A DNA stretch of 64,000 bases from Bacteroidota bacterium (GCA_039111535.1 JBCCIM010000010.1:1-64000); one strand, 5' to 3'; shown: positions 29,488 through 40,781, numbered from the stretch's first letter. The notes: a model not told the origin generated them from the letters alone. Made by a program: numbers and translations.

Positions 29488-30645
29488 TTAACCTTGCCGC
29501 CCAATTTCCATGCTCAGATTGACCATGCGGGCATCGCGCAGCACTTCGAGCTTAACGGTGTCGCCCGGGCGGAAGTCATAAAGCCGGCCAGCGAGGTCGA
29601 TCTGGTTGTCAATTTCTTCACCTTCAAAGGACAGAATGACATCATAGGGCCTGAAGCCAGCGCGTTCAGCTGGTGAGTCGGGGTCTACGTCGCGCACAAT
29701 AAAGCCGCGGGCCTGTGCAAGGCCTAGCGCACGCGCAATTCGGTCGTTGACATCTAGCCCACGAAGACCAGTATAGTACGACCTGTCAACTTCGCCGTTG
29801 GTGCGTAGCTCGTTGACAATGTCCCGTGCTTTGTGCGCAGGTACCGCAAAGCCCAACCCGATAGAGCCCGTGCTGCCTCTTGCTGTGTAGATAAAAGTAT
29901 TTACGCCAATAACTTCGCCCAATGCATTGATAAGCGGGCCGCCTGAGTTGCCCTGGTTGATGGCGGCATCCGTTTGAATCATGTCTCTGTAGACGCGGTT
30001 TTCCTGGGGTTGAAAGTCGCGACCCACGCCGCTAATAACGCCAACGGTTACTGTTGGCTCTGCGGCCTCAAAAAGGCCAAACGGATTTCCCAACGCGATG
30101 GCCCATTCACCAGGGATCGGATTGGTTGATTCTGAGAAGTTGAGGTGGGGTAGCGCCATGGACGTATCCACTTTTAACAACGCAAGGTCTGTCGCTTCAT
30201 CCCGGCCCACCAGTTCAGCTTCTAGCGTTGCCCCATCCATAAAAGCGACGGTGATTTGGGCGGCGTTGTGTGCTACGTGTTCATTGGTCACGATATAGCC
30301 GTCTGAGGAAATAACAAATCCAGATCCGACAGCCTGTACTTGCCGCTCGTAGACCCGTGATCGTCGCCGGCCAAAAAAGTATTCCATCCAGGGGTCACCG
30401 GCAAAGGGGTCGGTATACTGTACGCGCTCTACTCCTATTACGTTTACGCTTACCACAGCCGGACTCGCCTTCTCAACAGCATAGGTGATGGCATTTTGCC
30501 GGCTCAACATAACCTGTGTATTGGCTTCCGCAACGCTGGCAAAGTCTGTTGCAGCGGACTGCGGTTCATTGGGCTCCTGAGATTGAGCTTGCTGATTGCA
30601 AGACATCAGGCAGCATGTGGCAATAAACAGGGCGAGACGTACCAT
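29488..30645 (-). CDS. DegQ/HtrA-type periplasmic serine protease with one PDZ domain
   Basis: A 385-residue envelope protease. An N-terminal lipobox-like LMSC places Cys16 for possible lipid attachment. The trypsin-like domain has H123 (VTNEHVAHN), D153 (EATDLALLKVD) and S234 (NQGNSGGPLIN), and a loop YFFGRRRSRVYERQVQAVGSGFV. A single C-terminal PDZ domain (about 290-375; ARGFIVRDVDPDSPAERAGFRPYDVILS) follows, so the layout is like DegS rather than two-PDZ DegP. It degrades or senses misfolded envelope proteins. It is divergent from the H-NOX operon across 259 nt. Confidence 0.93.
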   Translation of the reverse strand: MVRLALFIATCCLMSCNQQAQSQEPNEPQSAATDFASVAEANTQVMLSRQNAITYAVEKASPAVVSVNVIGVERVQYTDPFAGDPWMEYFFGRRRSRVYERQVQAVGSGFVISSDGYIVTNEHVAHNAAQITVAFMDGATLEAELVGRDEATDLALLKVDTSMALPHLNFSESTNPIPGEWAIALGNPFGLFEAAEPTVTVGVISGVGRDFQPQENRVYRDMIQTDAAINQGNSGGPLINALGEVIGVNTFIYTARGSTGSIGLGFAVPAHKARDIVNELRTNGEVDRSYYTGLRGLDVNDRIARALGLAQARGFIVRDVDPDSPAERAGFRPYDVILSFEGEEIDNQIDLAGRLYDFRPGDTVKLEVLRDARMVNLSMEIGRQG

Positions 30646-30904
30646 AAACCAGGCTAATGCTAAATTGGATGATTTGATGATACCTACGTGAGGAATACGC
30701 GCTAGTTTCTTTTTTACGTGTGATTAGCAATTCTTCGCGCTGGCCTGACCATTGTTGCTGTGTCCCGTTTTTTTGATCAGAATCCCTGTCACATCTCTTT
30801 AAGCTAACAGATCGAAAAGCCGATACCAGATGGAGGACTTCTGCTGTCTTTTGGCAGCACCTGGATATGGAGTTCACATTTTCAGAGATAGCAAAGGCGT
30901 ACTG

Positions 30905-31291
30905 ATGGCTAAAATTCTCATTGTTGAGGACGAAGACGAACTGCGAAACGCAATTCGTCGCACGCTGGAAATAAACGGCTACGAAGTTACAACAGCTGAG
31001 GAAGGCCGCAAAGCCCTGCTGCTAATTGAAGAAGACCGTCCAGACCTTGTATTAACCGATATTTTCATGCCTGGCATGGAAGGCCTTGAAACAATTCAAC
31101 GGCTGGCAGGGGCACACCCAGGTTTGCCTATTGTGGTTATGACAGGCTCGCTTGATCGTCTTTTCCTTGATCTCGGGCTCAAATTTGGTGCAGTTCATGG
31201 CCTCAACAAGCCATTCAGTACCGATGAATTGCTTATTGCGATAAGTGAATCACTGGAATCTAGCGCAGACACATCCGCGCACTCAGCCTGA
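30905..31291 (+). CDS. Single-domain response regulator, first gene of the H-NOX operon
   Basis: A 128-residue receiver with nothing attached. Acidic pocket E8-D9-E10, phospho-acceptor D52 (LVLTDIFMPGMEG), Thr in VMTGS and Lys in LNKPF are all present. The ATG at 30905 gives the standard start MAKILIVEDE; an upstream start at 30830 would add 25 residues unlike any receiver. It lies 31 nt before the H-NOX gene and probably takes phosphate from the kinase of this operon, acting as a phosphate sink or through protein contact. Confidence 0.9.
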   Translation: MAKILIVEDEDELRNAIRRTLEINGYEVTTAEEGRKALLLIEEDRPDLVLTDIFMPGMEGLETIQRLAGAHPGLPIVVMTGSLDRLFLDLGLKFGAVHGLNKPFSTDELLIAISESLESSADTSAHSA

Positions 31292-31322
31292 AGAAATTTC
31301 AATAACCAAATAAGCTGGCATC

Positions 31323-31868
31323 ATGAAAGGAGTTGTTTTTACAGAGTTTTTAGAGATGGTGGAGGATACGTTCTCCCCGGAAGTCGCTGATGAAATGATT
31401 GTTTCTTCCAAGCTGGAGTCACAAGGATTTTATACGGCCGTTGGCACATACGATCACCGCGAAATGGTAGAGATGGTCACCCAGTTGAGTAGCATGACCG
31501 GTGTACCAATTGGTGATCTGCTTGAAAAGTATGGCGTCTACCTCTTTCAAAAGTTGATCGAAAGCTATCCTGGCTTTCTTGACGGCATTGACGGCGCTTT
31601 TGATTTTCTGAAAACAATCGACAACCACATTCACGTGGAAGTTCAGAAGCTGTACCCACAGGCTGAACTGCCAAAGTTTGATTACGAAGTGGTTGATGAT
31701 CGTACGCTAATCATGAAGTATGCCTCGCCGCGTGGTTTTGCCGCCTTTGCTTATGGTATGATGACCGGTTGTATTGCCTATTTCAAAGAAGACATCCATG
31801 TAGCGCAGAAAGATCTTTCTGACGGCACAGGTAAAGTCGCTGAATTTACCCTTACAAAGCAAGGCTAA
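31323..31868 (+). CDS. H-NOX haem-nitric oxide sensor protein
   Basis: A 181-residue stand-alone H-NOX protein. It begins MKGVVFTEFLEMVED, as the family does. The haem-ligand His is H104 in NHIHVEVQKLYPQAELP, and the haem-propionate motif Y-x-S-x-R is Y133-A-S135-P-R137. Five residues after that Arg, where the O2-binding Tyr140 sits in the Thermoanaerobacter protein, is Phe142, which points to an NO (and CO) sensor that excludes O2. The soluble histidine kinase starts two bases after its stop, so NO binding is expected to control kinase activity, as in Shewanella and Vibrio H-NOX/HnoK pairs. Confidence 0.95.
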   Translation: MKGVVFTEFLEMVEDTFSPEVADEMIVSSKLESQGFYTAVGTYDHREMVEMVTQLSSMTGVPIGDLLEKYGVYLFQKLIESYPGFLDGIDGAFDFLKTIDNHIHVEVQKLYPQAELPKFDYEVVDDRTLIMKYASPRGFAAFAYGMMTGCIAYFKEDIHVAQKDLSDGTGKVAEFTLTKQG

Positions 31869-31870
31869 AC

Positions 31871-33526
31871 ATGAGCAATGTTGAGATGATGCAAAGGCGC
31901 CTGGAGCGGGAGCGGCAGGCGCGCAAAGCTGCAGAAAAGCTGCTTGAAGAGAAGAGCCGCGAGATTTTCGAGATCAATCGTAAACTCTCGCAGGTAGCCT
32001 TGTTTGCAGATCTCAGCCCGAATCCTGTCTTGCGGTTTGACACGGAGGGGGCCTTGCTGCTTGCCAACGAGCGGGCAAAAAATGTATTGGGAGAACAGGT
32101 GTTTATGGGTAACACGCTGAGTAGCATGTTGCCCCAGTTTGCTGATCTCAATATCAAACAAATTGTAGAGGGTAGCGAAATATTTCAAGCTACCACTCAG
32201 ATGGAGGCCAGTCATTACCAGTTTACATTCAAAGGGATAGCGCCACACGGTTTTGTCAATGTGTATGCCAGTGATGTTACCCAACAGGAACTGGCGAAAA
32301 AAATGATTGAAGCTTCGCACCGGGAAACGGAGCAAATGCTTGCGTCGATATCTTCGATTCTTGTTGGAGTGGATAAAGATCGGAAAATTACCCGCTGGAA
32401 TGAGATGGCCAGCAATACCCTTGGGCTTACAGGTGAAGCGGTGCTCGGCCGTGATCTCAACGCTTGCGAAATACCCTGGTCTCTGGGGTCGCTGGAAGGG
32501 TACATGGCTGAAAGCAAATACGTTGACCATGCGATGGTCCCTGAGATTCCTTTTACAGCAGCAAACGGGAAAGAAGGTTTTTTAAGCGTGGTTGTTAACG
32601 TTGTATACGATGCCAACAACAGTTTTAACGGCTACCTGATTCTTGCGATCGATATTACAGACCGGAAGGTATTGGAAGGGCAGTTGATGCAGGCACAGAA
32701 GCTCGAGTCTCTTGGGCAACTTGCCGCCGGCATTGCGCATGAAATAAACACGCCAATTCAATTTATTGGCGACAATACACGCTTCCTCGGGGTAGCTTTT
32801 GAGCGCCTGAATACGGTCATCGAAAAAGGTCAGCAGTTGCTGAATGAAGTCCAGGGCGGAACGGGCATGATGGTCCAGGCGATCAGTGAAATGGAAGAGG
32901 CCGTGAAAAAGGGGAAGCTCAAATACATGGCTGCAGAAATTCCGTTTGCCATAGAGGAGACCCTCGGCGGTGTGGATCAGGTTGCATCTATTGTTCGCTC
33001 GATGAAGCAATTCTCTCATCCGGGGTCAAAGCAGAAAGTGCTCTCCAACATAAACGAGGCCATCCTGAGTACCATTAATGTGGCCCGTAATGAGTGGAAA
33101 TATATCGCTGAGCTAACGACAAATCTCGCCGAAGATCTTCCTGAAGTCCCCTGTTTTCAGAGCGAGCTCAACCAGGTTGTGTTGAACATGATCGTGAATG
33201 CAGCGCATGCAATTGAGGACAAAAACAAGGAGACCAAAGCCCATGGCCAGATTACGATTACAACAAGGTATACCGAAACGGATGCTGAAATTTTAATCTC
33301 GGATACAGGCGCCGGCATACCGGATCACGTGGTCTCCAAAATTTTTGACCCGTTCTACACAACCAAAGAAGTGGGCAAAGGCTCGGGCCAGGGGCTGGCA
33401 GTGGCTTATAACGTCATTTATGAAAAGCATGGTGGTGCGATTGACGTCGATACAACGCCGGGTGAAGGTACCACGTTCACCATTCGTATTCCGCTGAATG
33501 AAGAGACTGAGGAGGTAGCTGTATGA
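31871..33526 (+). CDS. Soluble PAS histidine kinase, partner of H-NOX
   Basis: A 551-residue cytoplasmic kinase without membrane helices. A coiled coil (residues 5-40) leads into two PAS domains (about 42-140 and 155-268; the second ends LAIDITDRK). The phospho-acceptor is H290 in GIAHEINTPIQFIGDN, a HisKA form typical of HK4-type kinases. HATPase_c shows NMIVNAAHAIED, ISDTGAGIPD, and GKGSGQGLAVAYNVI. Location between H-NOX and two receiver-output genes indicates it is the H-NOX-controlled kinase (HnoK-like) that phosphorylates up to three receivers in the operon. Its end overlaps the next gene by four bases (ATGA). Confidence 0.92.
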   Translation: MSNVEMMQRRLERERQARKAAEKLLEEKSREIFEINRKLSQVALFADLSPNPVLRFDTEGALLLANERAKNVLGEQVFMGNTLSSMLPQFADLNIKQIVEGSEIFQATTQMEASHYQFTFKGIAPHGFVNVYASDVTQQELAKKMIEASHRETEQMLASISSILVGVDKDRKITRWNEMASNTLGLTGEAVLGRDLNACEIPWSLGSLEGYMAESKYVDHAMVPEIPFTAANGKEGFLSVVVNVVYDANNSFNGYLILAIDITDRKVLEGQLMQAQKLESLGQLAAGIAHEINTPIQFIGDNTRFLGVAFERLNTVIEKGQQLLNEVQGGTGMMVQAISEMEEAVKKGKLKYMAAEIPFAIEETLGGVDQVASIVRSMKQFSHPGSKQKVLSNINEAILSTINVARNEWKYIAELTTNLAEDLPEVPCFQSELNQVVLNMIVNAAHAIEDKNKETKAHGQITITTRYTETDAEILISDTGAGIPDHVVSKIFDPFYTTKEVGKGSGQGLAVAYNVIYEKHGGAIDVDTTPGEGTTFTIRIPLNEETEEVAV

Positions 33527-34740
33527 AATGTCACATCCTCTTTGTAGACGACCAACCAGAAGTCTTGCGCGGGACGCGCCGGATGCTGTTCAATGTCGAT
33601 AGCGAATGGGATATAGATTTTGCCACCGATGCCGAGGAGGCGCTCGAGAAAATCAGGGCAGAGCCGTACGACATGATTGTGTCGGATATCAAGATGCCTG
33701 GTATGGATGGCACAGAACTTCTACAGCATGTCGCAGATGAGTTTCCGAACATGATCAGGATGGTGCTGTCTGGTTATCCGGATAGCGATCTGGTGATGAA
33801 AGCGGCTGAAAATGCACATCAATTTTTATCCAAGCCAACAAAGCAAGGAGAGTTGGTGGAGGTGTTGAGTCGATCGCTTTCATTACGGGAGCTGTTGCAA
33901 GACAAGCGCTTGTCAAAAATTGTAGCCGGCCTGGATTCCATTCCAAGCTTGCCCAATGTGTACATGGAATTGATGGACATCCTGAATTCACCGGACGGCT
34001 CTATGCAGGCCATTGGCAAGGTGATTTCGAAAGATATCGCGATGTCCGCCAAAATCATGCAAATGGTCAATTCTGCATTTTTTGGTCTTCCTGTTGAGGT
34101 TAAGAACCCGGTACACGCAACCAATCTCTTGGGCATTGAAGTGATCAAAGCGCTTGTGATGACGGTGCACGTATTCAAGAGCTTCAATAGCAACGGATCC
34201 AAGCGGTTTTCGCTAGAGAAATTTACCAACCACTGCCTGGCTGTAGGCGCGCTGGCAAAAACAGTTGCCAAGTTTGAAGGGCAGCCTCAGGACATTGTAG
34301 ACGACGCGTTTATTTCAGGGATGATGCACGATGTGGGCAAGTTGATTGTTGTAGCGAACTTCCCGGAGTATTACGACCAGAGCACAATTTATGCAGAGTC
34401 GCATGGGTTGACCTATGCACTTGGCGAGGAGGCCGTTTACAATACCACCCATGCAGAAATTGGCGCCTATTTGCTTGGCTTGTGGGGCTTCCGGGATAAC
34501 ATTGTAGAGGCGGTGGCTTTCCATCACCGTCCGGAAGACTGCAAGGGGACAACGTTCTCTCCACTCACTGCAGTACACATTGCGGACGCGCTGGAAAACG
34601 AATATGGCGATCCTAATTGCAGGGCATTGCCAATCATCCACATGGACTACCTCAATAACCTAGGATTAACAGAAAAGTTGGGAGACTGGCGGCAAGTTTG
34701 TCTCGAAACGCAACATTCCTTGATGCAAAATGATGAATAA
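33523..34740 (+). CDS. Response regulator with HDOD output domain
   Basis: A 405-residue protein: receiver (1-125) with D9/D10, phospho-acceptor D55 (MIVSDIKMPGMDG) and K in LSKPT, then an HDOD domain (about 132-330): IPSLPNVYMELMDIL, VISKDIAMSAKIMQMVNSAFFGLP, GMMHDVGKLIV, and later EAVAFHHRPEDCK. HDOD proteins are non-catalytic or weakly understood HD-related outputs in signalling. The start overlaps the kinase stop by four bases, so translation is coupled. It is likely a direct phosphate receiver in the NO pathway. Confidence 0.92.
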   Translation: MKCHILFVDDQPEVLRGTRRMLFNVDSEWDIDFATDAEEALEKIRAEPYDMIVSDIKMPGMDGTELLQHVADEFPNMIRMVLSGYPDSDLVMKAAENAHQFLSKPTKQGELVEVLSRSLSLRELLQDKRLSKIVAGLDSIPSLPNVYMELMDILNSPDGSMQAIGKVISKDIAMSAKIMQMVNSAFFGLPVEVKNPVHATNLLGIEVIKALVMTVHVFKSFNSNGSKRFSLEKFTNHCLAVGALAKTVAKFEGQPQDIVDDAFISGMMHDVGKLIVVANFPEYYDQSTIYAESHGLTYALGEEAVYNTTHAEIGAYLLGLWGFRDNIVEAVAFHHRPEDCKGTTFSPLTAVHIADALENEYGDPNCRALPIIHMDYLNNLGLTEKLGDWRQVCLETQHSLMQNDE

Positions 34741-35875
34741 AATACTTTTTGTCGACGACGAGCCGGCCATCCTGCGGAGCTATCAGCGTTATATCGGTCT
34801 TGATTATGAAGTAGATACCGCGTTGGGTGGCGAGAAAGGCCTGGAAATGCTCGAAGCAAACGGCCCGTATGGGGTTGTTGTATCTGATATGCGCATGCCT
34901 GGTATGAACGGGGCAGAGTTTCTTTCTGTTGTCAGACAGAACTTCCCGGAAAGCGTTCGGATGCTGCTCACAGGTCAGGCTGACATGTCAGATACCATTG
35001 ATGCAGTAAACAACGGCCGTATCTATCGCTTCCTAACCAAACCGTGCCCGCCTGAAACCCTCGGGCAGGCGCTGGATGAAGGCCTGGAAATCTACCGCCT
35101 CAGGAGTGCTGAGAAGCAGCTTCTCGAGCAGACATTGAAAGGGACCATCAAGTTGCTTGGTGACATCCTCTCAATCGTTAGTCCCGAATTGTTCAGTCGT
35201 TCTGCCCGGGTTAGGGATCTCTCCAAGCAACTCGCCGATCAGCTTGAGCTGGACAACGTCTGGAAAGTAGAAGTTGCTGCAATGTTAGCGCAGATTGGGT
35301 GTATTACCATTCCAAAAGATGTGCTTACAAAACGGTTTTCGGGGCAACAGCTGGATGACACCGAAAGCTTTACGTTCTTCAAACACTTGAAGGCCGGCAA
35401 AGAGTTGCTGGGTAACATCCCGCGCCTCGAAGAAATTGCCGAAGCCGTTGCGTACCAGGAAAAACACTTCAATGGCGGCGGACATCCACGTGATGATGTT
35501 TATGGAAATAGCATTCCAATCATTTCACGTATCCTCAAAGTTGCCAACGATTACGAACTCGAAAAGTCACTGGACAAGTCGCATACAGCGGCGCTTGGTC
35601 AGTTGCTGGCCGTCTCTGATCACTATGATCCGGATGTTCTTGAAGCGCTTAAAAAAGTGTTCAGTGGCGTTGAAGCAGAATATGTGGTGAAGGAAATTCG
35701 GGCCAAGCACGTAGTTACAGGCATGCTGTTGGCTGAAGGTGTACGCACAAAAAGTGACTTACTGCTGGTTTCCGAAAAACAGGAAATTTCAGACGCCATG
35801 ATGATGTGTATCCACAACTTCGCGGAAAACAGAAATATCATCGAGCCGGTACGCATTCTGATAAAAGCTACCTGA
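34730..35875 (+). CDS. Response regulator with degenerate HD-GYP domain
   Basis: A 381-residue RpfG-like protein. The receiver has D53 (VVVSDMRMPGMNG) and K in LTKPC. The second half keeps the HD-GYP frame (LLGDILSIVSPELFSRSARVRDLSKQLA; IPKDVLTK; GNSIPIISRILKVANDYE) but lacks catalytic residues: LLHDIG is replaced by MLAQIG (A187-Q188), the HHE site by AYQEKHF, and GYP by G251-H252-P253. It should not cleave cyclic-di-GMP. In Shewanella an inactive HD-GYP protein (HnoD) tunes the EAL enzyme of the H-NOX network; this may be an analogue, although no EAL gene is here. It overlaps the HDOD gene by 11 bases. Confidence 0.88.
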   Translation: MMNKILFVDDEPAILRSYQRYIGLDYEVDTALGGEKGLEMLEANGPYGVVVSDMRMPGMNGAEFLSVVRQNFPESVRMLLTGQADMSDTIDAVNNGRIYRFLTKPCPPETLGQALDEGLEIYRLRSAEKQLLEQTLKGTIKLLGDILSIVSPELFSRSARVRDLSKQLADQLELDNVWKVEVAAMLAQIGCITIPKDVLTKRFSGQQLDDTESFTFFKHLKAGKELLGNIPRLEEIAEAVAYQEKHFNGGGHPRDDVYGNSIPIISRILKVANDYELEKSLDKSHTAALGQLLAVSDHYDPDVLEALKKVFSGVEAEYVVKEIRAKHVVTGMLLAEGVRTKSDLLLVSEKQEISDAMMMCIHNFAENRNIIEPVRILIKAT

Positions 35876-35962: not shown

Positions 35963-37186
35963 ATGCGAATCAATGCAACCCGACTTCAGCAAAAACTGGC
36001 AGACCTGGCCACAATCGGACAAATTCCGGGTGGCGGGGTCTGCCGGCTTGCGTTTACAGCAGAAGACCTTGCCGGCCGTACCTTTGTCGCTGAGCAGATG
36101 GCGCTGTTGGGGCTCGATGTGCAAATCGATGCCGTGGGCAACTTGTTGGGTATCCGCAAGGGCCAACAAGATGGGCCACTCATACTCACTGGCTCCCATA
36201 CCGACACCGTGAAAACCGGGGGGCGATTCGACGGCAGCTTGGGCGTGCTTGCTGGCCTGGAAGTTATTGCGTCCTTAAACGATGCGGGCCTGCAAACCGC
36301 GTTGCCGATTGGGGTGATTTCCTTTGTAAATGAAGAAGGCGCCCGGTTTATGCCGGATATGATGGGCAGTCTCTACCAGGTTGACGCGTTGTCTCTCGAT
36401 ACAATTCGCTTGATTGAAGGGATAGACGGCACAACGATTGGCGAAAATCTGGACAGTTTGCAATATGCAGGTACAGCGGATTTTCGAGACCTGGAAATCG
36501 GTCACTTTGTCGAACTGCATATCGAGCAGGGGCCCTGGCTCGAACGTGAGGGGGTTACCATTGGCGCTGTTGAGCGCGTCCAGGGAATTCGCTGGCTCGA
36601 ATACAAGTTCACGGGTGTAGCAAATCATGCCGGCGCAACACCCATGTCGATGCGGCACGATGCGGGGTATGCTGTCGCAGCGCTTGCCCACGCCGTACGC
36701 GAAATTGCAACGGACATGGGTTCCGGTCAGCGGGCTACAACAGGGGCCATCCAGCTATTTCCAAATCTCATCAATGTTATAGCAGCAACAGGCGAAGTAA
36801 CCGTTGATCTGCGAAATCCCGATCCAGCGCAGCTAGCGATCGCTGCGCGCAAAGTAGAAGCAGCAGCAGGTCAGATCGCTGAGGCAGAGGGACTGTCCTA
36901 CACTGTGCGCTCACTTGCTGAAGTGGCGCCGGTCACGTTCAACGCAGAAACAGTGGAGGCCGTCGAAACAGCAGCAGCAGCGCTTGGCTATTCGTGCAGG
37001 CGCATGATCAGCGGTGCCGCACATGACGCACAAATACTGGCGCGCCGCTATCCGGCGGCTATGATTTTTGTGCCTAGCCGCGATGGTGTCAGCCACAATG
37101 TTCGCGAATACACGCGCCCTGAAGATGTTGAGGCGGGTGCAGATGTATTATTGCATACCGTGCTACAGCTTGCAGGGGGGCGTTAA
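35963..37186 (+). CDS. M20-family N-carbamoyl amino acid / allantoate amidohydrolase
   Basis: A 407-residue cytoplasmic metal-dependent amidase of the hydantoinase/carbamoylase branch. Metal-site motifs: GSHTDTV (H79), GRFDGSLGVLAG (D90), FVNEEGARF (E124/E125), ELHIEQGP (His near 185), and near the end SHNVREYT. The substrate could be N-carbamoyl-amino acids, allantoate or ureidoglycine; there is no hydantoinase, allantoinase or uricase gene nearby to decide. Its last four bases overlap the stop codon of the convergent small gene. Confidence 0.9.
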   Translation: MRINATRLQQKLADLATIGQIPGGGVCRLAFTAEDLAGRTFVAEQMALLGLDVQIDAVGNLLGIRKGQQDGPLILTGSHTDTVKTGGRFDGSLGVLAGLEVIASLNDAGLQTALPIGVISFVNEEGARFMPDMMGSLYQVDALSLDTIRLIEGIDGTTIGENLDSLQYAGTADFRDLEIGHFVELHIEQGPWLEREGVTIGAVERVQGIRWLEYKFTGVANHAGATPMSMRHDAGYAVAALAHAVREIATDMGSGQRATTGAIQLFPNLINVIAATGEVTVDLRNPDPAQLAIAARKVEAAAGQIAEAEGLSYTVRSLAEVAPVTFNAETVEAVETAAAALGYSCRRMISGAAHDAQILARRYPAAMIFVPSRDGVSHNVREYTRPEDVEAGADVLLHTVLQLAGGR

Positions 37187-37841: not shown

Positions 37842-40781
37842 ATGAAAAAAATTACTACGCTATTGGCGTTGTTGCTGTTGGGTGTAACCTCTTCATTTGC
37901 CCAGAGCACGCGATTCCAGGTAACCATTGAAAACGTGGGTGCGGAATTGCCGGTACTCAAAAAGGGTATCTTCAACACGCCCGTTGGCGCTTCTGACCCT
38001 GGCCCGATTGGCCCAGGACAGTCTTATGAATTCAGCTTTACAGCCGGCCCCGGGAATTACTTGTCGCTGGCTACGATGTTTATCCAGTCCAACGACCTTT
38101 TCTATACCTTTGAAGGTACCGGGCTTGCATTGTTTGACGAATTGGGCGCGCCAGTAACAGGCGACGTTACCAACAGTGTTTTCCTGTATGATGCAGGTAC
38201 TGAAGTTAACCAGGAGCCTGGTGTAGGTGCTGATCAGGCCCCACGTCAGGGAGGACCTGATACAGGTGCTGCTGAAAATGGCACACTATCTCGGATTACG
38301 GATGGTGCAATGGGCATTGGCGGATACACCTATCCCAATGTAGCGGATGTTATCCAGGTATCGCTGGCACACGATGGTGGTACCGAGTTCACGGTTACCA
38401 TTGCCAACGTTTCAGTGGAAAATGGACTCACCACCTCCACCGGTGCCGTGACCATTCCGCTTTCGCCAGGTGTATGGGCTGTGCACTCAAATGCAATTGC
38501 CTTTTTTGAGTCGGGCACCGAGGCGCCTGCAGGTATCGAAGCCATTGCAGAAGATGGCAACGCCGGCGTTTATGATGCAGCGCTTGAGCCTCTTACAGGT
38601 GTTCAGGTACCCCTCGCACCTGGTGCATGGGCAGTACATTCACCTACGGTTAATTTCTTCGAAGCAGGCGCTGCTGCCGGCGCAGGTATCGAAGCCATTG
38701 CAGAAGATGGTAACCCGGGAATCCAGGCTGATGCGCTCGTTGGCGTTGAGGGGGTAGGCAGTGCTGGCGTATTTAACACGCCTGATGGCGCTGCGGGCCC
38801 TGGTCCGATCGGTCCAGGTGGTAGCTACTCATTCTATGTGGATGCAGAGCCAGGCTATGGTCTTTCATTTGCAACCATGTTTATTCAGTCCAATGACCTT
38901 TTCTACGCGCCGGCTGGTGCTGGTATGCCGCTGTTTGATGGTGATACACCGGTATCAGGCGACGTCACGGCTTCTGTAGCCCTCTGGGATGCAGGAACTG
39001 AAGTAGACGAAGAGCCCGGCGTTGGGCCTAACCAGGCACCACGCCAGAGTGGCCCCAACACAGGTGTCGATGAAAATGGCGTTATCGTAGAAGTCGACGG
39101 CGAAAATGACGGTTTCACGTATGTTGCTGTTAACGAAGTCGTTCGCGTTACCGTGACCCCGCTTGAGCCGGTTACCTTCTATGCCCGTATAGAAAATGTA
39201 GGTGCTGCAGACGCTGTTGCTTCCGCTGATGGCGAGGGCCAGGCTGTACCGTTTGCACCAGGCGTTTGGGCTGTTCACAATGCGCCAGACCCGCTCTTTA
39301 CCGTAGGCGCACCAGACCGCGGTGATGGCCTTGAGGGACTTGCTGAAGATGGTGCTACAACTGATTTGGCGGCTGCACTCGAAACAACAGCTGGTGTACT
39401 TTCTTCTGGCGTATTCAACACGCCTGTAGGCGCTGAAGCACCAGGCCCGATTGGCCCGGGTGGCGTTTATGAATTCAGCTTTGAAGCATTGCCAGGAGAC
39501 TACCTGTCATTTGCAACGATGTTTATCCAGTCAAATGACCTGTTCTATGCACCAGACGGCAATGGTATTCCGCTGTTTGATGCAGAAGGTATGGCGCGCC
39601 GCGCTAACATCACCCACTATGTTGATCTGTGGGATGGTGGCACAGAAGTGAACGAAGAGCCAGGTCTCGGTGCAAACCAGGCGCCGCGTCAGGCTGGTCC
39701 CAATACTGGAGATGATGAGGGCGGTAACGTTGTGCTGATTGCTGATGGCGAAATGGGGCCTGGTGGCTTCACTTATCCAACAGTAGCCAGCCAGATCCGC
39801 GTGACAATTTCTCAAACACCTGTGACGCCTTTCCGCGTCCTTGTTGAGAACTTGTCGGACGAGAACTCGGTTGCCGGCAAAGCCCGCGCAGCTGTACCGC
39901 TCGCCCCAGGTGTATGGGCTGTGCACACATCGGGAGATCCACTCTTTACCGTTGATGCACCAGACCGTGGCGAAGGCCTTGAGGCACTCGCAGAAGACGG
40001 TAGTCCAGGTGAACTCGCAACATCACTCTCAACCCTTAGCGGCGTAGTTTCAAGCGACTACTTCAATACGCCAATCGGCGCAGACGCACCTGGGCCAATT
40101 TTCCCAGGCGAAGGCTATGAGTTTACCGTATATGCAGTACCAGGAGACTACCTGTCGCTGGCAACCATGTTTGTACAGTCCAACGACTTGTTCTACGCAC
40201 CGGACGGCAATGGCATCCCGCTGTTCGATGGCGAAACGCCAATAGACGGCGACGTTACCAGCCAGATCCTCTTGTGGGATGGTGGGACGGAAGTGAACGA
40301 AGAGCCAGGACTTGGTGCAAACCAGGCGCCACGGCAGTCGGGTCCGAATACAGGTGATGATGAAAACGGACCTGTAGTACTGATTGCAGATGGCACAATG
40401 GGCCCTGGTGGTTTTTCTTACCCAAATGTTGCTGACGTAATCAGAGTAACCATCAACGGTGGTACAGCAGTGTCAACCGAAGATGCTTTTGAAGTGCCGG
40501 ACGGCTTCACGCTGCACAACAACTATCCGAATCCATTTAACCCAACCACTACCATTCGCTACGAAATTCAGCAGGGTGGAAACGTGGGGCTTGCAATTTT
40601 CAACGTCCTCGGGCAAAAAGTTGCTGAACTGGTTAGTGGTTCACAGACAGCTGGTGTGTATGAAGTTAACTGGGATGGTCGTGACCTGAGTGGTCAAACT
40701 GCTGCCTCTGGAGTCTACCTCTACCGGTTGACATACAACGGTCAGCAGAGCCAGTCTAAAATCATGACCCTGCTCAAGTAA
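37842..40781 (+). CDS. T9SS-exported protein of four spondin-N-like repeats
   Basis: A 979-residue protein with a signal peptide (KKITTLLALLLLGVTSSFAQ). Four copies of a spondin_N-like unit start near residues 44, 309, 523 and 740; each has FNTPxGA, PGPIGPG, Y-x-F, LSxATMFIQSNDLFY, PLFD, a DVT...LWDAGTEVxEEPGxGxNQAPRQ segment and GPNTG. Between them lies a second motif PGVWAVHSxxxxxF...GLExLAEDG, itself duplicated after the first copy. The C-terminus is a T9SS domain beginning NYPNPFNPTTTIRYEI and ending SKIMTLLK. Spondin_N domains are known from extracellular adhesion proteins. A surface adhesin or matrix protein is the likely role. Confidence 0.92.
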   Translation: MKKITTLLALLLLGVTSSFAQSTRFQVTIENVGAELPVLKKGIFNTPVGASDPGPIGPGQSYEFSFTAGPGNYLSLATMFIQSNDLFYTFEGTGLALFDELGAPVTGDVTNSVFLYDAGTEVNQEPGVGADQAPRQGGPDTGAAENGTLSRITDGAMGIGGYTYPNVADVIQVSLAHDGGTEFTVTIANVSVENGLTTSTGAVTIPLSPGVWAVHSNAIAFFESGTEAPAGIEAIAEDGNAGVYDAALEPLTGVQVPLAPGAWAVHSPTVNFFEAGAAAGAGIEAIAEDGNPGIQADALVGVEGVGSAGVFNTPDGAAGPGPIGPGGSYSFYVDAEPGYGLSFATMFIQSNDLFYAPAGAGMPLFDGDTPVSGDVTASVALWDAGTEVDEEPGVGPNQAPRQSGPNTGVDENGVIVEVDGENDGFTYVAVNEVVRVTVTPLEPVTFYARIENVGAADAVASADGEGQAVPFAPGVWAVHNAPDPLFTVGAPDRGDGLEGLAEDGATTDLAAALETTAGVLSSGVFNTPVGAEAPGPIGPGGVYEFSFEALPGDYLSFATMFIQSNDLFYAPDGNGIPLFDAEGMARRANITHYVDLWDGGTEVNEEPGLGANQAPRQAGPNTGDDEGGNVVLIADGEMGPGGFTYPTVASQIRVTISQTPVTPFRVLVENLSDENSVAGKARAAVPLAPGVWAVHTSGDPLFTVDAPDRGEGLEALAEDGSPGELATSLSTLSGVVSSDYFNTPIGADAPGPIFPGEGYEFTVYAVPGDYLSLATMFVQSNDLFYAPDGNGIPLFDGETPIDGDVTSQILLWDGGTEVNEEPGLGANQAPRQSGPNTGDDENGPVVLIADGTMGPGGFSYPNVADVIRVTINGGTAVSTEDAFEVPDGFTLHNNYPNPFNPTTTIRYEIQQGGNVGLAIFNVLGQKVAELVSGSQTAGVYEVNWDGRDLSGQTAASGVYLYRLTYNGQQSQSKIMTLLK

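Follow-up and report, generated by a model that had tools for sequence, protein, structure and literature searches.

How might a nitric oxide (NO) signal travel from a haem sensor in a bacterium that apparently lacks cyclic dimeric GMP (c-di-GMP)? Bacterial H-NOX proteins have been studied mostly through c-di-GMP, although other outputs, namely HnoC and quorum-sensing kinases, are known. The question is raised by a five-gene operon in a 64,000-nucleotide stretch of a Bacteroidota bacterium genome (GCA_039111535.1 JBCCIM010000010.1:1-64000), referred to here as the window, in which an H-NOX gene is followed by a histidine kinase and by two response regulators, one with an HDOD domain and one with a degenerate HD-GYP domain. 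Our favoured answer, which we hold with moderate confidence, is that an NO-sensing H-NOX gates the kinase, which in turn phosphorylates adaptor response regulators without any involvement of c-di-GMP.

The operon

The operon comprises the following features, the fourth of which is part of the third:

30905..31291, plus strand: single-domain receiver (REC), phospho-Asp D52 (Pfam Response_reg 2.3e-27)
31323..31868, plus strand: H-NOX haem sensor, 181 amino acids (Pfam HNOB 3.6e-40; pocket mapping)
31871..33526, plus strand: predicted soluble PAS-PAS histidine kinase, 551 amino acids, phospho-His H290 (Pfam PAS, HATPase_c and HisKA)
31871..31999, plus strand: N-terminal helix of the kinase, RRLERERQARKAAEKLLEEKSREIF, proposed H-NOX docking element (match to hidden Markov model (HMM) A4, 1.9e-18)
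33523..34740, plus strand: REC-HDOD response regulator, phospho-Asp D55 (Pfam HDOD 3.2e-51 and Response_reg)
34730..35875, plus strand: REC-pseudo-HD-GYP response regulator, phospho-Asp D53 (Pfam HD_5 6e-36 and Response_reg)

A first-pass annotation of this DNA had described five intact genes on the plus strand in this order; all five frames are indeed open, the ORF coordinates reproduce exactly its gaps of 31 and 2 nucleotides and overlaps of 4 and 11 nucleotides, and the Pfam search of all five proteins that it had proposed recovered the expected domain classes. It had omitted an alternative upstream start of the REC frame at 30830 (153 amino acids) and the two PAS regions of the kinase. A scan of the operon for promoters and terminators gave no signal exceeding the shuffled expectation, so that the limits of the operon rest on spacing only.

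A conserved but degenerate HD-GYP protein in a genome apparently free of c-di-GMP

The evidence that carries the argument concerns the outputs. As the first-pass annotation had claimed, alignment shows the HD-GYP domain of the last gene to be degenerate: HD is replaced by AQ (LAQIG), HHE by YQE, and the GYP region reads GGGHP. The HD, HHE and GYP residues of a phosphodiesterase are thus lost and the fold is kept, with DvhD (9rbz) and 4mcw retrieved by Foldseek; in the HD-GYP proteins of the same order used for comparison, HD is intact and HHE mostly intact. Nevertheless, when the window is set against locus L071 (genome G412), a second genome of the window's family, Rhodothermaceae, identified by the agreement of HD_5 match coordinates, which carries the same five genes in the same order, the pseudo-HD-GYP shows the highest conservation in the operon (66% identity, against 61% for H-NOX, 51% for the kinase, 44% for the single-domain REC and 41% for REC-HDOD), which implies that it is under selection. 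Judging from sequence, then, constraint is strongest on the very protein that cannot act as an HD-GYP enzyme. The notion that these are decaying pseudogenes can be rejected, given the intact frames throughout and the first rank of the dead HD-GYP in conservation.

What could such a protein do here? The genome, a draft of 355 contigs that is 97.6% complete, gave zero matches to GGDEF, EAL and PilZ in HMM searches that do find matches in 5-8 of 14 control genomes, and zero to FIST, for which control genomes likewise score; GGDEF also has no match in two family relatives, though it is present in 27 of the 114 genomes of the order. With none of these four domains matched in a genome of this completeness, an output of the usual kind through c-di-GMP is very unlikely, and the cell apparently does without c-di-GMP. 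The earlier suggestion that HDOD, not EAL, serves as an output here gains from the lack of any EAL match.

The HDOD protein is less easily read. It belongs firmly to its family (174 bits against a cut-off of 22.9), its AlphaFold model is of good quality (mean predicted local distance difference test score, pLDDT, 87.7; predicted template modelling score, pTM, 0.89), and Foldseek retrieves 3hc1, 3p3q and SadB (9qzk). All seven HD-type residues are kept (H237, H269-D270, H310, H334-H335 and D355), as they are in the homologs from loci L134 and L081, and six of the seven persist in a paralogue on contig C44 of the same genome; the general HD family is matched by the domain as well (1.6e-8). The ortholog in the sister operon L071, however, retains none of the seven, and those of L107, L141 and L069 have lost most. 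Because L071 makes do without them, the circuit does not require hydrolysis, and the case for the HD-type site as the key activity is weakened accordingly. GsmR, an HDOD regulator that has been characterised, showed neither phosphatase nor phosphodiesterase activity according to the work cited in PMC4114195. Taken together, the linked pseudo-HD-GYP and HDOD proteins look like adaptors rather than enzymes.

The sensor and the kinase

The H-NOX assignment is secure (138 bits against a Pfam cut-off of 25.5, together with the proximal His and the YxSxR motif). Mapping on Tt H-NOX, with a sequence that agrees end to end with PDB 1u4h, bears out the pocket proposed by the first-pass annotation, H104, Y133-x-S135-x-R137 and F142: H104 corresponds to the proximal ligand H102 of Tt, P117 to P115, and Y133, S135 and R137 to Y131, S133 and R135. 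F142 occupies the place of the distal Tyr140 of O2-binding H-NOX, a position that is Tyr in only 2 of 113 compared sequences, and distal W9 and N74 of Tt are replaced by Phe and Leu. With no equivalents of Tyr140, Trp9 and Asn74, stable O2 binding is not expected, in agreement with the earlier expectation of NO rather than O2 sensing. The closest solved structures, 6ocv and 6bde/6bdd (E 1e-40 to 1e-46 across the whole domain), the latter pair of which we take to be an H-NOX of the Kordia algicida type, likewise have Phe at the Tyr140 position, although they tell nothing about the outputs of the operon. A Cys-zinc redox-switch motif has been described in H-NOX (PMC12329717); the window protein has a single Cys (C150), so that neither this site nor the switch is expected. 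By its residues and its homologues, the window H-NOX is likely an NO sensor.

The kinase scores with PAS_8, PAS_4 and HATPase_c (2.1e-23), and with HisKA at 7.4e-6 (26.4 bits, slightly below the 26.9 cut-off); H290 and the N and G boxes are present. It looks soluble, as had been claimed: no membrane domain was recognised by Pfam, and hydropathy over 19 residues peaks at 0.97. In each of the three receivers the acidic pair, the phospho-Asp, the T/S and the Lys are retained, and it is plausible, from gene linkage and these intact phospho-sites, that one kinase drives all three. The same genome encodes a second H-NOX, paired with an HNOBA kinase, and another two kinases of the same class.

The proposed chain of events would then begin with the binding of NO to the haem held by H104. 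The NO-bound sensor would switch down autophosphorylation of H290, most likely via residues 1-43 of the kinase, inhibition being the usual effect in the systems studied (PMC8846402). Phosphate would pass from H290 to D53, D55 and D52; phosphorylated pseudo-HD-GYP and HDOD would bind target proteins, with no hydrolysis of a cyclic dinucleotide, a step suggested by the dead sites and the missing c-di-GMP enzymes, and the free REC might act as a phosphate sink or as a further adaptor.

Recurrence across phyla and a second copy in the genome

Is this arrangement peculiar to the lineage, as the first-pass annotation had suggested? Within the phylum it might seem so: 26 of 395 genomes have H-NOX, and no other H-NOX locus in these 26 has adjacent HDOD or HD-GYP genes, an upstream single-domain REC being common (16 of the other loci). 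A wider survey of neighbourhoods, covering the 80 closest H-NOX loci in GTDB genomes, overturns the claim. The H-NOX/kinase pair followed by REC-HDOD and REC-HD-GYP was found in L071, L107, L108 and L141, with variants in L134 (HD-GYP on the opposite strand) and L081 and a partial form in L150; L107 and L141 come from Alphaproteobacteria, L134 from a gammaproteobacterial endosymbiont, and L108, L081 and L150 from Planctomycetota. In L069, on a Pseudoalteromonas plasmid, a REC-HDOD gene overlaps H-NOX.

Eight operon-linked pseudo-HD-GYPs from Rhodothermota, Alpha- and Gammaproteobacteria and Planctomycetota, the C44 paralogue included, form one clade (support 100/100), with an LSQIG-like sequence where HDIGK is expected. 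The H-NOX tree, by contrast, scatters the operon-bearing loci: it requires 7 label changes, at least 4 of them forced by well-supported branches, and a single origin of the whole operon has to be rejected. Sensor and cassette must have been combined or separated repeatedly.

The window genome itself holds only two HD_5 proteins, that of the window and that on contig C44. The loci concerned, with the second H-NOX pair, are:

L153:2890-9259 (G000:C44): cassette of MHYT-kinase, PAS-PAS-kinase, REC-HDOD and REC-pseudo-HD-GYP
L153:9267-10577, minus strand: PilT/T2SSE-like ATPase, convergent with this cassette
G000:C14:26452-26928 (L039:9339-10019, minus strand): second H-NOX of the genome
L039:7221-9290, minus strand: kinase after the second H-NOX, HNOBA-HisKA-HATPase, with a C-terminal receiver that looks degenerate by eye

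The C44 kinases and outputs are 34-51% identical to their window counterparts over the aligned parts, and the sequences suggest that the kinase/HDOD/pseudo-HD-GYP set is a cassette on which sensors can be exchanged. The adjoining PilT-like ATPase is a weak hint as to a target.

Related gene arrangements were noticed in other bacteria. In Pseudoalteromonas, the REC-HD-GYP-like gene adjoins hemH (ferrochelatase), a possible link to haem supply (L069:4279-6793 and L166:4971-7378). Plasmid p319 of Vibrio coralliilyticus carries an HDOD-REC-CheC-kinase-EAL-HD-Hpt cluster some 5 kb from an H-NOX/kinase pair (L164:5983-12736 and L068:8001-9527), and a Burkholderia pyrrocinia megaplasmid has, next to a REC-HD-GYP-like gene, a kinase that appears MHYT-like by eye (L165:4911-8177), the same pairing as on C44.

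A helix common to H-NOX partners

The gene directly behind H-NOX commonly encodes a protein that starts with a helix of the consensus RRLxRExxARxxAExLLExKSxELYxAN, which in the window kinase spans residues 1-43 and is the sole match to HMM A4 in the genome. Its conserved positions include R13, R18 and E22. It occurs in partners of differing output, namely kinases, hybrid kinases and GGDEF-EAL proteins; a strict pattern is present in 72 of 104 H-NOX partners and in 4 of 1691 other frames, and variants account for many of the misses. In the 395 phylum genomes, the HMM gives 12 strong matches, all within the 26 H-NOX genomes and each beginning 56-71 nucleotides past the end of an H-NOX domain (Fisher p 4e-16); 4 of the 12 contributed to the HMM, and the absence of the helix elsewhere is independent of that. 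The only extras are a weak match next to another H-NOX and a marginal one elsewhere. The helix-less partners carry HNOBA instead (8 of 8 checked). This is the case of the second H-NOX pair (L039), which resembles the window in that H-NOX lies directly upstream of a kinase but has an N-terminal HNOBA in place of the helix and no adjacent HDOD or HD-GYP genes; Pfam finds no HNOBA in the window kinase, and the two H-NOX pathways should thus be insulated at the sensor.

Outside Bacteroidota, 46 named H-NOX genomes were searched, and 50 helix matches were recovered in 45 of them, by construction mostly known partners. Second copies turned up five times, three of them next to a different H-NOX and two without one alongside. 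Soluble PAS kinases that carry the helix with no adjacent H-NOX, in genomes that have H-NOX elsewhere, lie at L212:2617-3933 and L214:3004-4371 and are candidate unlinked clients. We propose that the helix is an H-NOX docking element. No description of it was found in the literature searched, which left out papers on hydrogen exchange at the H-NOX/kinase interface.

Comparison with known systems and alternative explanations

Neither H-NOX/kinase circuits nor degenerate HD-GYP partners are new in themselves. In Shewanella oneidensis and Vibrio cholerae (HnoX-HnoK-HnoB-HnoD, with or without HnoC), a soluble kinase under H-NOX control acts on several response regulators, among which HnoD neither makes nor breaks c-di-GMP and is an allosteric inhibitor of the HnoB phosphodiesterase (PMC8846402, PMC8738867). 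The gene arrangement and residues of the window would fit an H-NOX-regulated kinase with a degenerate regulatory response regulator. Could this be an ordinary network of that kind, its EAL partner encoded elsewhere? This explanation is largely refuted and strikes us as highly improbable: the pairing is similar, but EAL, GGDEF and PilZ are all without a match in a genome that is 97.6% complete, and two family relatives lack a GGDEF match too. The window also differs in having an HDOD regulator and in placing kinase and outputs in one operon. The first-pass annotation had invoked the Shewanella and Vibrio systems, a comparison that misleads since GGDEF and PilZ are without a match either. The other natural comparison is the Burkholderia NosP system, in which NosR, a degenerate HD-GYP with the motif HG-GTP, is phosphorylated by its kinase (PMC12570481). 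The NosR-NosP-NosK operon, too, combines an NO sensor, a kinase and a degenerate REC-HD-GYP, and NosR is the best NCBIfam model for the window protein (NF053512, 1.4e-76); the score, however, is 258 bits under a cut-off of 400, the window sensor is H-NOX rather than FIST/NosP, and an HDOD partner is added. A NosP link was rejected on the FIST-free genome and on the lack of any annotated FIST within ~5 kb of similar plasmid HD-GYPs.

A more serious rival, though in our view an unlikely one, holds that HDOD is a catalytic output acting on a nucleotide other than c-di-GMP (for example, cyclic GMP-AMP (cGAMP), pGpG or an alarmone), with the pseudo-HD-GYP regulating it as HnoD inhibits HnoB (PMC8846402); the retained HD-type residues speak for such an activity, and their loss in the sister operon, along with the inactivity of GsmR, speaks against it. 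That the sensor answers redox state, CO or O2 instead of NO appears more doubtful still: the choice of ligand is unprovable from sequence, and in Caulobacter H-NOX binds NO but leaves its kinase uninhibited, responding to oxidation and not to NO (PMC12329717), but the window protein combines the lone C150 with a distal pocket devoid of Tyr, Trp and Asn. Several points nonetheless weigh against the NO-gated adaptor circuit that we favour. Both the sign of the response and the ligand come from homologues, among which Caulobacter H-NOX is an exception; the metal ligands of the window HDOD are complete, such that the domain may be active; the specificity of phosphotransfer is not something that sequence reveals; the genome is a draft in 355 contigs, and the searches might overlook a divergent cyclase; and the helix might serve in dimerisation instead of docking.

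Neighbouring genes

The operon is flanked by genes neither of which is tied to the circuit:

29488-30645, minus strand: HtrA/DegQ-like protease, upstream gene (by eye)
35963-37186: M20 peptidase, next gene downstream (Pfam)

Further downstream (37842-40781) lies a gene for a secreted-looking protein of 979 amino acids in which the repeat FNTPxGAxxPGPIGPG...ATMFIQSNDLFY recurs about five times and which has, by eye, a Bacteroidota-type C-terminal sorting tail.

Implications

A broader possibility, which we put forward tentatively, is that a reusable kinase/HDOD/pseudo-HD-GYP cassette passes gas signals on by protein contacts and entirely without a cyclic dinucleotide, with one copy in this genome under H-NOX (NO) and one under an MHYT sensor kinase, and that the helix would be a general code through which H-NOX proteins of bacteria know their clients, whatever the output type. 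No description of H-NOX together with HDOD was found in the literature searched, although most subscription papers lay outside the search and a prior description is possible. In that literature, the pairing of HDOD with a pseudo-HD-GYP where no c-di-GMP enzymes are detected, its recurrence across phyla and the partner helix all appear to be undescribed.

In Shewanella, Vibrio and Burkholderia, c-di-GMP chemistry obscures what degenerate HD-GYP and HDOD proteins do apart from catalysis; a background apparently free of c-di-GMP, in which an H-NOX operon with a well conserved dead HD-GYP is kept, would isolate that role. As to how a kinase or cyclase is found by H-NOX, the partner helix turns the question into a hypothesis that mutation can address directly, and it may offer a route to unlinked H-NOX clients in genomes.

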